DNA from: a virus
IMG/VR virus record: IMGVR_UViG_3300044675_003132
Span: 1 to 32,647 of that record
DNA: 32,647 bases
Direction: 5' to 3' (one strand)
Shown: positions 1,294 through 31,295 of the stretch, in pieces
How positions within the stretch are numbered: position 1 is the first letter of the stretch
Layout: each line of letters starts with the position of its first letter
Position numbers and translations under genes: made by a program
Notes under the pieces: generated by a model
Told to the model about the DNA's origin: nothing
The model's database searches: none
Seen by the model: the letters and a program-made list of their open reading frames with translations, nothing else

Positions 1294-1438
1294 GGAAGTC
1301 ATGCAGTTGGCGCTGGACGCCCTGGTTAAGTGGCAGAGGATCTGCCTGGTCAAGAGCAGGGCAGCCAACGAGCTGATGATCCCGACTAAGGCGATCTTTG
1401 CCTTGACTGCTGCGCTGTCCCAGGACGAGCCCAAGTGA
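1283..1438 (+). CDS. small helical protein, 51 aa
   Basis: The ATG lies eleven bases inside the end of the preceding gene, and the TGA overlaps the GTG start of the replication gene by four bases. This fits the coupled style of the operon. The protein is mostly helical (VMQLALDALVKWQ and IPTKAIFALTAALSQ) with no membrane segment. Family unknown. Its position directly ahead of the initiator suggests that its translation feeds into that of the replication protein. Confidence 0.5.
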   Translation: MTDKEVMQLALDALVKWQRICLVKSRAANELMIPTKAIFALTAALSQDEPK

Positions 1439-2367
1439 GTGCTATGCCAGACAACGTCGTGCCATTTGCTCTGCCCAAGAAGCCCAAGATCGTCGAGAAG
1501 GAGCCGCTGCCAGACCAGCGCAAGTTCTCTGTCATGCCGATCAGAGCCGTCAAAGACAAGGATCTGTCACATGTGGCCATCAGGGTTTTGGGTTTGATCT
1601 GCACCTACACCAACAGAGCTGGCATCACTTGGGTAGGCACACAGCAGCTGGCCACAGACCTGCAAGTGACCCGGCAAGCCATCAGCAAGCAGCTAGTCAA
1701 GCTCAAGGCTGCAGGCTATGTACAGGTCATCCACCGCGGCTATCACGGCAAGAGAAACGATACCATTCGGGTAATCTTTGACGAGAGTATCGACACCGAG
1801 ACAGCCATTGCCATCACATCAAGACACGAAGACACAAGGCCACCCGTCATGAGACAGAAGCAGGAAGACGAGATCAATAACACCATCGACCCAGAAGGAT
1901 TACGTCGCATCAAAGACATGATCCGAGGTGTCATAAAGCCAATGAATGAACCACCGAAGGAGTATCAAATGCCCAAAGGCGACACCATCACAGTAGCCAA
2001 GATGAAGGCAGAAATAGCTGCCAAGAAGTCAAGGAAGCAAGCCCCTGTAGACAACCCAGCGGTTGACAATGGAGAGCCTCCTGTAGACAACCACCAGGTT
2101 GACAGTGTTGACAACCACAGGGTTGACATAAACGCGGTTATAACGAAAGAACAGTTATATATAAAGGTTTTAGAAAAACATAAAGTAAAAGGTTTAACTA
2201 AGGTTGATGTTCTAAGGTTAACTACATGTGAGTTGAAAGAAGAACAACTAGATGCTGATGTGGCAATGTTGCTAAACCTTTACGCATCCGAGGGATTGCC
2301 TGTGCCTGACGCTGGAATGCTGGTGGATTCGATCATTCAGCTGCATCTGGACGCTGCTCGAGGATAG
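1435..2367 (+). CDS. lambda O-like replication initiator, winged-helix protein, 310 aa
   Basis: The N-terminal part (about residues 40-115) is a winged-helix domain. It has VAIRVLGLICTYTNRAG, then LATDLQVTRQAISKQLVKL as the helix-turn-helix and GYVQVIHRG as the wing. This is the arrangement of phage replication initiators that bind iterons at the origin and recruit host helicase. The middle (about residues 205-232) is a low-complexity run of VDN-type triplets, encoded by the six iteron-like DNA repeats described separately. The C-terminal 80 residues are charged and helical and could be the partner-binding domain. The GTG start is chosen because it overlaps the upstream stop by four bases; an ATG at 1444 is the alternative. 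No helicase or polymerase gene follows, so dependence on host enzymes is inferred. A plain transcription factor is possible but less likely. Confidence 0.65.
   Translation: MSAMPDNVVPFALPKKPKIVEKEPLPDQRKFSVMPIRAVKDKDLSHVAIRVLGLICTYTNRAGITWVGTQQLATDLQVTRQAISKQLVKLKAAGYVQVIHRGYHGKRNDTIRVIFDESIDTETAIAITSRHEDTRPPVMRQKQEDEINNTIDPEGLRRIKDMIRGVIKPMNEPPKEYQMPKGDTITVAKMKAEIAAKKSRKQAPVDNPAVDNGEPPVDNHQVDSVDNHRVDINAVITKEQLYIKVLEKHKVKGLTKVDVLRLTTCELKEEQLDADVAMLLNLYASEGLPVPDAGMLVDSIIQLHLDAARG
2047..2130 (+). repeat. six iteron-like direct repeats inside the initiator gene
   Basis: A nine-base motif of the form GTWGACARY occurs at 2047, 2062, 2083, 2098, 2107 and 2122, the last copy ending in ATA. Start-to-start spacings are 15, 21, 15, 9 and 15 bases. 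All copies are in the reading frame and encode Val-Asp-(Asn/Ser/Ile). The spacing is not strictly helical but all copies are on one strand. Iterons within the gene of their own initiator are the hallmark of lambdoid origins. Binding by the encoded winged-helix protein is inferred. Confidence 0.6.
2131..2225 (+). other. AT-rich stretch next to the iterons, candidate DNA-unwinding element
   Basis: Directly after the last iteron the coding sequence becomes markedly AT-rich, for example GTTATATATAAAGGTTTTAG around 2154-2173, in contrast to the more GC-rich flanks. It contains repeated AAGGTT hexamers (near 2164, 2200 and 2214). In lambda, the AT-rich segment beside the iterons is where strands first open. 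The order here, repeats then AT-rich DNA inside the initiator gene, matches that plan. Confidence 0.5.
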
Positions 2368-2751: not shown

Positions 2752-3063
2752 ATGTCATATGAAACAAAGTACGAGAAGAGACCTGGTCAGGGTAGTGCTT
2801 TTGCCAACAAGGACAAGAAGGAGGACTGGCACGCTGACTTCAAGGGTGATGTGTTGTTGCCTGATGGCACGTTGCACTGGCTTGAGGTGATGCCGGCGAC
2901 GACCAGGGCTGGTGAGCCTTACTTCAAGGTCAAGATTGGTAATGTTAAGGTGCCGAGGGCTGGGATGACTGCGCACAGTGAGGCTAAGAGCAATGGCTAC
3001 CAGCCGCTGGGGCAGGCGATGAAGTTCCCGGATGCCAACCCTGATGCGGATATACCCTTCTGA
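2752..3063 (+). CDS. small protein with SSB-like C-terminal tail, candidate ssDNA-binding protein, 103 aa
   Basis: A strong ribosome site (TAGGAGG, 2737-2743) precedes the ATG. The core has features of a small beta-rich domain (HADFKGDVLLPDGTLHWLEV, then EPYFKVKIGNV), resembling small proteins of phages and plasmids that keep nucleic-acid-binding folds. Most telling is the end, NPDADIPF. Bacterial single-stranded DNA-binding proteins end in an acidic tail with Ile-Pro-Phe that docks DnaG, RecO, PriA and other partners. A role in binding single-stranded DNA or recruiting host replication proteins is therefore inferred. The position between the initiator and the terminase fits either a replication or a packaging role. 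The stop overlaps the next start by one base (TGATG). Confidence 0.55.
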   Translation: MSYETKYEKRPGQGSAFANKDKKEDWHADFKGDVLLPDGTLHWLEVMPATTRAGEPYFKVKIGNVKVPRAGMTAHSEAKSNGYQPLGQAMKFPDANPDADIPF

Positions 3064-28062: not shown

Positions 28063-28089
28063 CCCCCGACTAATCCTCGGGGGTTTTTT
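28063..28089 (+). terminator. strong rho-independent terminator of the late operon
   Basis: CCCCCGA (28063-28069) pairs with TCGGGGG (28077-28083), followed by six T residues (28084-28089). It terminates the rightward late transcript. The stop codon of the convergent RecT gene (28070-28072 on the minus strand) lies in the hairpin loop. Confidence 0.88.
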
Positions 28090-29062
28090 CTGTGGGCATG
28101 GCGGCACCCAGCGCTGCGTTACGTTTTGAGTAGGCAGCTGAGTGTCGCAGTTTCTTGACCTGCTCCATTCGATTGAGCGTCTCCTGGTTGAGGTCGCGCA
28201 GTTTCTTCAGCACTGACATGCGCTCCCGTGGCGTGCGCTTACCAGCCCTGGCTGTCTTATCTGCTATGTCTTCGTAGGTGTTTGCCCAGGATTCCAAGTC
28301 AGGCATGGTGCAGTGAATGGCCGTCGTGCCGTCATCCTTTGGCACCAGCAAAGGTATGTCGGTTGATTCTGCAGAAGGTTCGGCAGATTCGGCAGAATCA
28401 TTCTGCAGCTCTACCTCAATCACATCAGCCACCACCTCGGCCACCGCTACGGGCTCGGGCTCTGCCGGTGGTGCTATCAGATCCAATGGATTAGCAGGCA
28501 TCGGTGTGATGTCTTTGATCGGCTGGCCGCTGTTTTCTGTTGGGTAATCCTCTGCCTCCTCTGCGCTGATCAGCCCTTTGAGTACGTCAGGGAAGGCGTC
28601 ACGCAGGGCAAAGCCACGGGCTCGCATCTGCAGCATGCGCTTTGGGTACGCAGTCCACGGCCCCTGCTTGCCCCACAGCCCGGCACGCTTGGCATCCTCG
28701 ACGCTAAACTTGGCGGTCACTGGCGTGCGGTTCTTGCGCTTGGCTATGCAGACCGCAACCGGGTTGGAGGAGTCTGCGTTTTCCAGCGTTTCTTCGATAC
28801 CCTCGCATACTGGACTGGCTTGCACCAGGGCGGCCATTGCATCACCGTAGACGCTGGGCTTGCCATTGATCACAGCGATATTCTGCAGCGCCTGCATGGG
28901 TGCCAGGCCGAGCTCATATCCCCATTGAACGCAGACCATAATATCCTGCGGCTTTCCCTGGTACGCACGCGGCACCATGCTGGACTCAGCCAGCATTTTA
29001 GAAAACTCCATTGCTTCGCCCATAGTAGCGGGAGCGAATCCCTTAGTTGTAGTCAATTGCAT
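28070..29062 (-). CDS. RecT-family single-strand annealing protein, 330 aa
   Basis: It binds single-stranded ends made by the partner exonuclease and anneals them to homologous DNA. The RecT-type core (about residues 1-180) shows MEFSKMLAESSMVPRAYQGK, PQDIMVCVQWGYELGLAPMQ, ALQNIAVINGKPSVYGDAM, and GPWTAYPKRMLQMRARGFAL. A long acidic, Ser/Glu-rich linker (VELQNDSAESAEPSAEST) leads to a small charged helical C-terminal part. An ATG at 29080 is possible, but ATG 29062 has an AGGGG ribosome site six bases upstream and is preferred. It overlaps the end of the previous gene by 20 bases. It is the last gene of the leftward operon. Confidence 0.88.
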   Translation of the reverse strand: MQLTTTKGFAPATMGEAMEFSKMLAESSMVPRAYQGKPQDIMVCVQWGYELGLAPMQALQNIAVINGKPSVYGDAMAALVQASPVCEGIEETLENADSSNPVAVCIAKRKNRTPVTAKFSVEDAKRAGLWGKQGPWTAYPKRMLQMRARGFALRDAFPDVLKGLISAEEAEDYPTENSGQPIKDITPMPANPLDLIAPPAEPEPVAVAEVVADVIEVELQNDSAESAEPSAESTDIPLLVPKDDGTTAIHCTMPDLESWANTYEDIADKTARAGKRTPRERMSVLKKLRDLNQETLNRMEQVKKLRHSAAYSKRNAALGAAMPTEKTPED

Positions 29063-29228
29063 CATCATCCCCTGGCACATAAGTATTTAATGTCTGCAGC
29101 AGCAAGACAGACAGGCTGTCCACCACTTCGTTTGCTTGCTCTTCTGTCATGGTCGGCACCGCATTCAGCAGCGCGACGCAGGCTGCAGCGTGCGCTTGCT
29201 CAATGTCGGTCAGCTCTCGGTCGCTCAT
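29043..29228 (-). CDS. small acidic helical protein, 61 aa
   Basis: The gene lies between the exonuclease and RecT genes, coupled to the exonuclease by ATGA and with an AAGGAG ribosome site. The protein is acidic and helical (DRELTDIEQAHAAACVALL, then MTEEQANEVVDSLSVLLL), with no catalytic motif or membrane span. Its place between an exonuclease and its annealing partner suggests an accessory of the recombination pair or an inhibitor of a host nuclease. That is inference from position. Confidence 0.6.
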   Translation of the reverse strand: MSDRELTDIEQAHAAACVALLNAVPTMTEEQANEVVDSLSVLLLQTLNTYVPGDDDAIDYN

Positions 29229-30181
29229 GAAATCTCCTTGATTGACAGCGTCGATTGCCGGATAGCGTAGGCATCCTTGGCCGGCACGATACGTTGAGGC
29301 GCTGCCTTGTAGTAGCGCATGGGCCAGCGAACTTCGTAGGCACCGACCTTCGCCCTGCCTGCGTCGCCCATCATGGCCTTGAGCTCTGTCTCTGCCTCTG
29401 CGCGTCTGACCTCGGCTGCCTTGATGTCTGCCGTGGCCGCCAGGATCTGGTCAACCAGCTGGTTTGCTTTGACTGGCAGGTGTGCAGTGCGGCTATCGTC
29501 AGCTGCCGGGAACATGCGGTCGGCATCCTTGCTGCTCGCTGGTGCGTAGAAATCGATCTCGCCATTTGATTTGAATTTTTCGAGCTTGGACTGAAACTCA
29601 AGCACGGCAGCCTTGATGGTGGCCAGCGTCTGTGCGTGCGGCTCGAACAGAAAGATCCGAAGCGTGGTTCCCTGGTACAGCACGGCCACGCATCCCCACT
29701 TTGCCTGCATGATGTCCATCTGTGCCTGCAGCTGCACTGGCCCGCGGTACAGAGCCGGCATATCCTCTGGCGCTACAGCTGTGAGCTTGGCCTCGAGCAC
29801 GCCCACGCCGGCCAGCTCTATGCTTTCTTTGCCGACCACGAAGATGCCGGCGTCTGGGTCGGTGCGCACTACCTGGCCAGCGCCATCGGCACAGCCATCC
29901 AGGCTACAGGCCAGCGGCAATGTTTCGTGATAGAACGCTTTGCTAAACTCAGTCTTCAGATCCAGCAACTGCAGGCGCTTGGCCGTCTCCCGCAGGATAA
30001 TTTCCTCGAGCCGGTCGCCCCAGGCCATCGATTCATTCTGCGCAAAGTCTGTCTCTTTGCCGGTGATGGCGTTGATGGTTGCCTGCAGCTCATCATTTGG
30101 GGTCTGATACTTTGAGAGCCCAAGCAGCGCAGGAAGCCGGCTGGCTGACATCATTGTATTGGGGGTTAGCTTTCCTGACAT
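29225..30181 (-). CDS. YqaJ-type recombination exonuclease, 318 aa
   Basis: It is an alkaline-exonuclease-like enzyme that resects double-strand ends to supply RecT with single strands. The PD-(D/E)xK nuclease core is visible: SASRLPALLGLSKYQTP (residues 12-28), WGDRLEEIILRETAKR with Glu59-Glu60, CSLDGCAD with Asp95, VLEAKLT with Glu130 and Lys132, and VQLQAQMDIMQ (149-159). This is the order of YqaJ viral recombinases. The C-terminal about 100 residues include a helical extension (KAAEVRRAEAETELKAMMG) seen in many phage versions. The ribosome site AAGGAGGAAAC is ideal. A RecE-type exonuclease is the nearest alternative. Confidence 0.88.
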   Translation of the reverse strand: MSGKLTPNTMMSASRLPALLGLSKYQTPNDELQATINAITGKETDFAQNESMAWGDRLEEIILRETAKRLQLLDLKTEFSKAFYHETLPLACSLDGCADGAGQVVRTDPDAGIFVVGKESIELAGVGVLEAKLTAVAPEDMPALYRGPVQLQAQMDIMQAKWGCVAVLYQGTTLRIFLFEPHAQTLATIKAAVLEFQSKLEKFKSNGEIDFYAPASSKDADRMFPAADDSRTAHLPVKANQLVDQILAATADIKAAEVRRAEAETELKAMMGDAGRAKVGAYEVRWPMRYYKAAPQRIVPAKDAYAIRQSTLSIKEIS

Positions 30182-30468: not shown

Positions 30469-30545
30469 ATGACACCACCGATGCACAAGATAATGACCAT
30501 GATGATCAAGGCGCAGAGTGCGCCATTAAAGAAATCGTCGTTCAT
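30465..30545 (-). CDS. 26-residue single-span membrane peptide
   Basis: The ATG (30543-30545) is preceded by AGGAGT with six-base spacing, and both ends overlap neighbouring genes by four bases (ATGA). That is strong evidence that the frame is translated. The peptide starts MNDDFFNGALC, followed by ALIIMVIILCIGG, one clear membrane span with a short acidic head. Function unknown. Its presence in a recombination operon is unexpected. Confidence 0.6.
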   Translation of the reverse strand: MNDDFFNGALCALIIMVIILCIGGVI

Positions 30546-31192
30546 GCTGCACTCCTTTGCATTAGGTTAGCTACTTGGCTGGCACCCCAGGTCTGGCCTC
30601 CACGGGCTGTCAGCACACCGCGAGCTGTCAGTGCGGCTGCGATTGAGCGCAGGCTGGTGGATCCTGTCTTCGCCACAATGTCGGCGATGATTGGCTGGAC
30701 GCGAAGGGCAAACTGATCTGCGTTTGCCTGGATGCTGGCGATGCCGGCAGCCGAGCCTGCTGTTGGGTTTGGGCTGCCGAGCTTGACGCCGCGTGCCTTG
30801 GCCGCCTGCAGAGCTGCCTTAGTGCGCTTGCTGATCTCTTCACGCTCATGCTGGGCGACCACTGCGCGGATACCGAACTCCAGGGTGCCGGCATGCGGCA
30901 TGTCAGCTGCGAGGATCTGCACGCCTGAGTCACGCAGGGTCAGCAGGAAGGCAGCCTGGCGTGAGAGGCGGTCGATCTTGGCGATCAAGAGAGCTGCGCC
31001 GGTGGCTTTACACATAGCGATAGCTGCGGCCAGCTGTGGCCGGTCATTGTGCTTGCCTGATTCGATCTCGGTAAACGAGTGGATGATGCCGTCTGTGTAC
31101 TGCGAAACGGCAGCCTGCTGGGCTTCGAGGCCAAGACCTGACGCGCCCTGGCGGTCTGTTGATACGCGGTAGTAGGCTACATATTTGGACAT
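30542..31192 (-). CDS. small serine recombinase, resolvase/invertase family, 216 aa
   Basis: The catalytic domain (about residues 4-140) shows YVAYYRVSTDRQGASGLG with the nucleophile Ser11, then ESGKHNDRPQLAAA, LLIAKIDRLSRQAAFLL with the Asp-Arg-Leu-Ser-Arg motif, and ISKRTKAALQAAKARGVKLG. The C-terminus has a DNA-binding helix-turn-helix region (LRSIAAALTARGVLTARGGQ). The size fits resolvases and invertases, not large integrases. ATG 31192 has AGGAG seven bases upstream; longer in-frame extensions lack a ribosome site and run into the control region. It leads the leftward operon and may act in dimer resolution, inversion or integration. No site pair was identified. Confidence 0.88.
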   Translation of the reverse strand: MSKYVAYYRVSTDRQGASGLGLEAQQAAVSQYTDGIIHSFTEIESGKHNDRPQLAAAIAMCKATGAALLIAKIDRLSRQAAFLLTLRDSGVQILAADMPHAGTLEFGIRAVVAQHEREEISKRTKAALQAAKARGVKLGSPNPTAGSAAGIASIQANADQFALRVQPIIADIVAKTGSTSLRSIAAALTARGVLTARGGQTWGASQVANLMQRSAA

Positions 31193-31253
31193 TTTACGCT
31201 CCTGTATCTCGGTGGCGGTGCGGTCGGAAGTGACCGTGAACAGATCCTCGCAT

Positions 31254-31268
31254 ATATCACCGTGATAT
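31254..31268. promoter_or_regulatory. palindromic operator candidate 1
   Basis: ATATCAC and GTGATAT are perfect inverted 7-base arms around a single central base. The site abuts a minus-strand TTGACA and would block the leftward promoter if occupied. The binding protein is unknown; the adjacent ribbon-helix-helix protein is the nearest candidate. Confidence 0.55.
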
Positions 31269-31295
31269 GTCAACAACCCAAACCAATAATTCTTT

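Follow-up and report, generated by a model that had tools for sequence, protein, structure and literature searches.

Phage lambda provides an example of a replication origin held within an initiator gene: ori lies inside O, its inverted-repeat iterons bind O dimers, and it includes a 40-bp AT-rich region (PMC5043065). In Stx phages the number of iterons varies, and with it the length of the protein linker (PMC7466680). A comparable layout is found in the 319-aa Rep of pSK41, in which an N-terminal domain binds Rep boxes located mid-gene, the ori encodes a linker, and a separate C-terminal domain follows; in the hybrid Rep of pPR9 the same role is taken by an HTH_36 (PF13730) N-terminus whose relatives include a phage replication protein (PMC5703833). 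The iterons of RepA_N plasmids are reported to be direct repeats, semi-palindromic in form, that surround a poly-A tract (PMC7145576). Gram-negative iteron plasmids, such as P1, F, RK2 and R6K, combine iterons, DnaA boxes and an AT-rich tract, the iterons being mostly direct repeats that bind monomers (PMC5043065). Finally, no DNA or RNA polymerase has been identified in the Methylophilales phage MEP301 (MW452941; PMC8024684).

The window analysed here is the whole 32,647-nt stretch of IMG/VR virus record IMGVR_UViG_3300044675_003132. Positions 2047–2225 are highly likely to be an origin of replication that lies within the gene for its own initiator and functions in the manner of lambda ori/O and the staphylococcal RepA_N plasmid replicons. 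A lambda-type origin inside an initiator gene had been put forward in a first-pass annotation made from the sequence alone, and is supported by the dyads within the gene, the AT-rich tract and the O-like annotation of the protein. The initiator gene of a large uncultured group of aquatic phages almost certainly also holds the DNA sites bound by its product.

The locus resembles lambda O/ori in the placing of the origin within the initiator gene, in having inverted-repeat iterons and in the adjacent AT-rich tract; as in the lambda and Stx O genes, the linker of the protein is longer or shorter according to the number of iterons, which varies. It departs from lambda in iteron sequence, in iteron number (mostly two to three here, as against four to six), in the lack of a detected P-type loader, in matching HTH_36 rather than the Pfam lambda-O model, in the DnaA boxes found in the array of many relatives, and in belonging to a phage with a T7-like particle. 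With the staphylococcal RepA_N Rep proteins it shares an N-terminal DNA-binding domain, an ori-coded linker and a C-terminal domain, as well as a fold match (4pql, 4pt7 and 5kbj), but it has no Pfam RepA_N match, and RepA_N plasmids are Gram-positive. In P1, F, RK2 and R6K the iterons are mostly direct repeats, whereas here they take the form of dyads and are located within the initiator gene. The nearest cultured relative, MEP301, has the same gene order and particle type.

The initiator gene and its protein

The initiator gene has a GTG start in the window, while its relatives start at an ATG with MSAMPDN. Its product matches Pfam HTH_36 (1.6e-6), and its best PHROG match is to the 'replication initiation O-like' families (E 1.5e-7), in agreement with the earlier placing of the repeats inside a winged-helix gene. 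No Pfam lambda-O model was matched in the Pfam search, and RepA_N (PF06970) was absent from matches at E up to 1, among which HTH_36 and other HTH models were listed. From viral contigs, 162 unique homologous initiator genes were collected, and 384 relatives were confirmed in a single scan; a scan of genome contigs for cellular or prophage relatives returned one short match only.

The AlphaFold model used was built with 91 sequences (pLDDT 79.1, compared with 55.7 when 12 sequences were supplied); in it the winged helix and the C-terminal helical domain are ordered, and a single long stretch is disordered. This stretch, residues 201–234, is the only segment of at least three residues with pLDDT below 50, and coincides with the iteron-coded linker. 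The best solved folds found by VIA-align were the initiator/Rep entries 4pql, 4pt7 and 5kbj, with Z of 7.7–8.9 over 87 residues, values that are close to the level seen for common folds and on which the resemblance to initiators rests; Foldseek against the PDB gave nothing under E 1e-3 for this protein. Model and fold match together give a layout of N-terminal winged helix, iteron-coded linker and C-terminal domain, the last of which is proposed as a candidate partner-recruiting domain (Table 1).

Table 1. Features of the initiator gene, the proposed nested origin and the adjoining gene in the window
Feature	Position	Strand	Details
O-like replication initiator gene	1435..2367	+	310 aa, GTG start; HTH_36, PHROG O-like
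Winged-helix DNA-binding domain, residues 33-116	1531..1782	+	pLDDT >90 over most; structure match
Recognition helix (predicted), residues 80-93	1672..1713	+	residues 80, 84, 85 and 88 co-vary with iteron type
Disordered linker holding the iterons, residues 201-234	2035..2136	+	pLDDT <50
Iteron I	2047..2070	+	core dyad CAACC-CAGC-GGTTG, 2052-2065
Iteron II	2083..2106	+	core dyad CAACC-ACCA-GGTTG, 2088-2101
Iteron III	2107..2130	+	core dyad CAACC-ACAG-GGTTG, 2112-2125
AT-rich tract, proposed DNA unwinding element	2131..2225	+	71.6% AT
C-terminal helical domain, residues 238-309	2146..2361	+	pLDDT 89-95 blocks from residue 241
Single-strand-binding-protein-like gene, next downstream	2752..3063	+	PHROG 18154, E 0.00069 (weak)

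Inverted-repeat iterons

Six GTWGACARY repeats had been reported in the linker-coding region. Five are exact (2047, 2062, 2083, 2098 and 2107), whereas the sixth, at 2122 (GTTGACATA), differs from the consensus in its last two letters; the reported spacings of 15, 21, 15, 9 and 15, and the placing of all copies in frame, were correct. Both strands of the whole 32.6 kb hold six exact GTWGACARY matches, five of them here, compared with 1.9 expected by shuffling, and the repeats encode VDN, VDS or VDI in one frame. As a description of the binding site, however, the six-fold direct repeat has to be replaced, as the conserved unit is the dyad CAACC-N4-GGTTG. The window as a whole has exactly three of these, at 2052, 2088 and 2112, spaced by 36 and 24. 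The six-fold repeat stems from an outer GACA in the right half, which all three dyads have in common only with a 95%-identical relative (L001); at this place the remaining relatives mostly show GGTTGT or GGTTGC. The inverted-repeat form of the iterons was confirmed in the window and in the relatives. A helically phased iteron array is not claimed, the spacings of 36 and 24 not being multiples of 10.5. An Rfam search gave no match.

Conservation of the dyads at the DNA level

Ten further loci share the 36/24 spacing, and in nine of these the proteins are no more than 42–44% identical. Other clades have a spacer of 5 or 6 nt and dyads spaced by 48, 51, 81 or 84, or have the core replaced by GACACT...AGTGTC or GTTATC...GATAAC. 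Alignment of the half-sites gave CATAGxCAACCT, in which x differs from phage to phage but is mostly the same within any one of them. The exact CAACC dyad is missing from 56 of the 162 genes, many of which carry other dyads.

Altogether 198 dyads were counted in the 162 genes; synonymous codon permutation left a mean of 16.7 and a maximum of 23, and 720 kb of flanking DNA contain six. For the window alone, none of 2000 permutations yielded three dyads. Across genes the dyads lie at the same gene position, yet are read in frame 2 (122), frame 0 (48) or frame 1 (28), encoding, by frame, HNLEVV/DNPQVV, QPPEVA and TTSEVV, and two genes (L095 and L096) carry dyads in two frames. Synonymous identity to the window reaches 74.5% over the iterons, compared with 39–55% elsewhere in the gene. 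The repeats are therefore kept at the DNA level while the linker varies, in three frames and with differing peptides, which upholds the first-pass suggestion that DNA function has shaped the protein linker. Judged from these sequence comparisons, the dyads are maintained by DNA function and not by protein function. The best explanation is that the iteron-coded disordered linker tolerates almost any sequence, such that DNA function dictates the linker peptide.

The recognition helix and iteron switching

Genes were classed by half-site, using classes of our own, and the classes were compared with the columns of the protein alignment. Residue 80, with which the predicted recognition helix begins, is Q in all 68 type-A (ACAACC) genes, R in 34 of 35 type-G (GCAACC) genes and K in all nine of type T (TCAACC); the ACACT-core genes have R there (20/20) and the GTTATC-core genes Q (11/11). 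At residue 85 all 20 ACACT-core genes have N, and all GTTATC-core genes R. Among close relatives of unlike iteron type, the most over-represented differences fall at residues 88, 85, 80 and 78. The contigs are not independent samples; on a quick FastTree phylogeny built without residues 74–94 there were at least 17 changes of iteron type, and independent pairs on the tree agreed in seven of seven cases for Q80 (p 0.016) and six of six for N85 (p 0.031).

At the level of single bases, G is present at -1 or -2 in 75–88% of half-sites accompanied by R/K80, as against 17% with Q80, and 84% of half-sites with Q80 have A at -1. In the window residue 80 is R, and all three dyads carry G at -2 in both half-sites (left, GACAACC; right, GTCAACC); only through this base does the residue-80 rule hold here. 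That iterons and recognition helix vary together agrees, at the sequence level, with the earlier expectation that the protein binds the repeats, and a reading of the dyads by the O-like protein through its recognition helix is strongly supported. As the protein's grip and its sites change together across relatives, one gene would constitute a self-contained start switch.

The AT-rich tract, DnaA boxes and GC skew

The AT-rich segment reported to follow the repeats is present, peaking at 80% AT over 2138–2197, a higher value than in any other 60-mer of the window. In 103 genes the AT fraction rises from approximately 0.52 to 0.63, 0.72 and 0.65 in three 30-nt steps past the last dyad, before falling to approximately 0.39. 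Its position and composition make the tract a candidate unwinding element.

Exact DnaA boxes, which we take to be TGTGGATAA, number 98 in 77 of the 162 relatives, all in the linker region, compared with eight under synonymous permutation and four in the 720 kb of flanks. The boxes are always in frame, encoding VDN or VDK, and a protein constraint may therefore be partly responsible for them. The window contains no DnaA box. Over the whole window TTATNCACA-like sites (one mismatch) are rarer than expected, at 5 vs 20.9, a scarcity that might reflect avoidance or codon use. In one clade (L008, L010 and L015–L019) the iterons, GTTATC-N6-GATAAC, adjoin up to four DnaA boxes, and the iteron and DnaA-box sequences of these linkers resemble each other.

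A turn of the cumulative GC skew near 2047 had also been anticipated. It is absent, the curve rising near-steadily across the window with no clear minimum elsewhere either; the skew is uninformative because it is dominated by the coding strand.

Genome context and replication partners

The O-like gene is followed on the same strand by the SSB-like gene, a 139-aa ORF and the large terminase. MEP301 gp50, annotated as a ssDNA binding protein, occupies the same place as the SSB-like gene, and the 139-aa ORF sits where MEP301 has its small terminase. PHROG matches to portal, tail and internal virion proteins agree with the T7-like particle named in the first-pass annotation. The initiator homologue in MEP301, gp55 (L295, 34057–34662, minus strand; annotated 'hypothetical'), is 39.5% identical and O-like, but unlike the window initiator it has only 201 aa and no iteron linker, and a scan of MEP301 found no repeated dyads or DnaA boxes; the arrangement is thus not universal.

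DnaB, lambda P, DnaC/IstB and PolA were not found in 20 possibly incomplete records, comprising the window, 18 relatives of 32–45 kb and MEP301; the P-type loader model, PF06992, did match in an E. coli control. The window encodes a pair formed by a RecT-like annealing protein and a YqaJ/RecE-like exonuclease (28073–30181, minus strand), which makes recombination-dependent late replication likely.

A small serine recombinase (30545–31276, minus strand; Pfam Resolvase, PHROG DNA invertase) has a homologue in the place of MEP301 gp04, and no large integrase was matched among the window ORFs tested. A 36-bp imperfect palindrome, TGTCCAAATCGCAATCGAACGTATGGGTTTTGGACA, lies at 2480–2515, 114 nt past the initiator stop; of 162 related loci, approximately 122 retain it with little change in this distance. 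Its TGTnCA ends are symmetric, its inner parts read CCA..CG/CG..TGG, and its centre is a non-palindromic AA, replaced by TT in 9 of the 84 unique sites. The element resembles a crossover site at which the phage's own small serine recombinase would act, and is perhaps a dimer-resolution site adjoining the origin.

Alternative explanations

The dyads might instead be operators, at which the protein represses or roadblocks the replication/packaging operon from inside its own gene, with the origin elsewhere. Dyads are typical of operators, winged-helix folds resemble the MarR, CodY and CRP regulators, and the same strand carries the SSB-like and terminase genes further downstream. Nevertheless, the operator reading is unlikely, given that in 103 genes the array gives way to 90 nt of AT-rich sequence, that DnaA boxes are concentrated in the very same linker and all but missing from the flanks, that PHROG groups the protein with replication initiators, and that lambda O and pSK41 Rep, which have the same layout, are origins. 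Operator and origin functions could coexist. The proximity of the terminase genes, just beyond the SSB-like gene and the 139-aa ORF, would suit a packaging (pac/cos) or partition-like site, but the array varies in sequence together with the O-like protein's own recognition helix, and neither the AT tract nor the DnaA boxes of the relatives have a known packaging role, making this very improbable.

It could also be argued that the Val-Asp-Asn run is a low-complexity linker selected at the protein level, with the DNA repeats as its by-product, since in the window the VDN, VDS and VDI repeats all share one frame. This has been largely refuted and is scarcely credible: among the relatives, dyads occur in three frames with unrelated peptides, and even in two frames within L095 and L096, they collapse under synonymous permutation, and their synonymous sites are over-conserved.

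Proposed mechanism and significance

For the nested origin, which is the preferred reading, we infer that dimers of the O-like protein would bind each of the three dyads through the winged-helix domain, as suggested by co-variation and symmetry, with recognition-helix residues 80–88 reading the half-site. The bound array may then distort and open the adjoining AT-rich tract, consistent with the position and composition of the latter, and the C-terminal helical domain would bring in host replication proteins. The first-pass annotation had the protein recruit host helicase, which is conjectural given that no lambda P or DnaC-type loader turned up in the 20 possibly incomplete records. In many relatives host DnaA, at the DnaA boxes of the same stretch, probably helps.

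A broader proposition, to which somewhat less than even confidence is attached, is that aquatic phages with T7-like particles and no recognisable polymerase, helicase or loader replicate from a one-gene replicon, in which the iterons, the unwinding tract and, in many members, DnaA boxes are contained in the codons of the linker and the start of the C-terminal domain. Origin specificity would have been changed repeatedly by paired changes in a small number of recognition-helix residues and in the iterons, a few hundred bases apart within one gene, and the initiator, with or without host DnaA, would load the host helicase without a phage loader.

Nested origins are already known, and this one is not new in kind. 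What appears to be new is the variant, with coding DnaA boxes in many relatives, the use of three reading frames, repeated helix–iteron switching and an occurrence in polymerase-poor T7-like phages, undescribed in the literature searched. It provides a concrete replication start for abundant uncultured phages, whose cultured relative has been reported without replication polymerases and carries the homologous gene under no annotation other than 'hypothetical'. The group also constitutes a natural data set of initiator–origin pairs in which a specificity switch is visible, with a code that pairs Gln80 with A, Arg/Lys80 with G, and Asn85 with the ACACT core. As the switch can be seen in these pairs, the co-change of initiator and origin specificity, and the compatibility of origins, become testable by single-residue versus single-base swaps.
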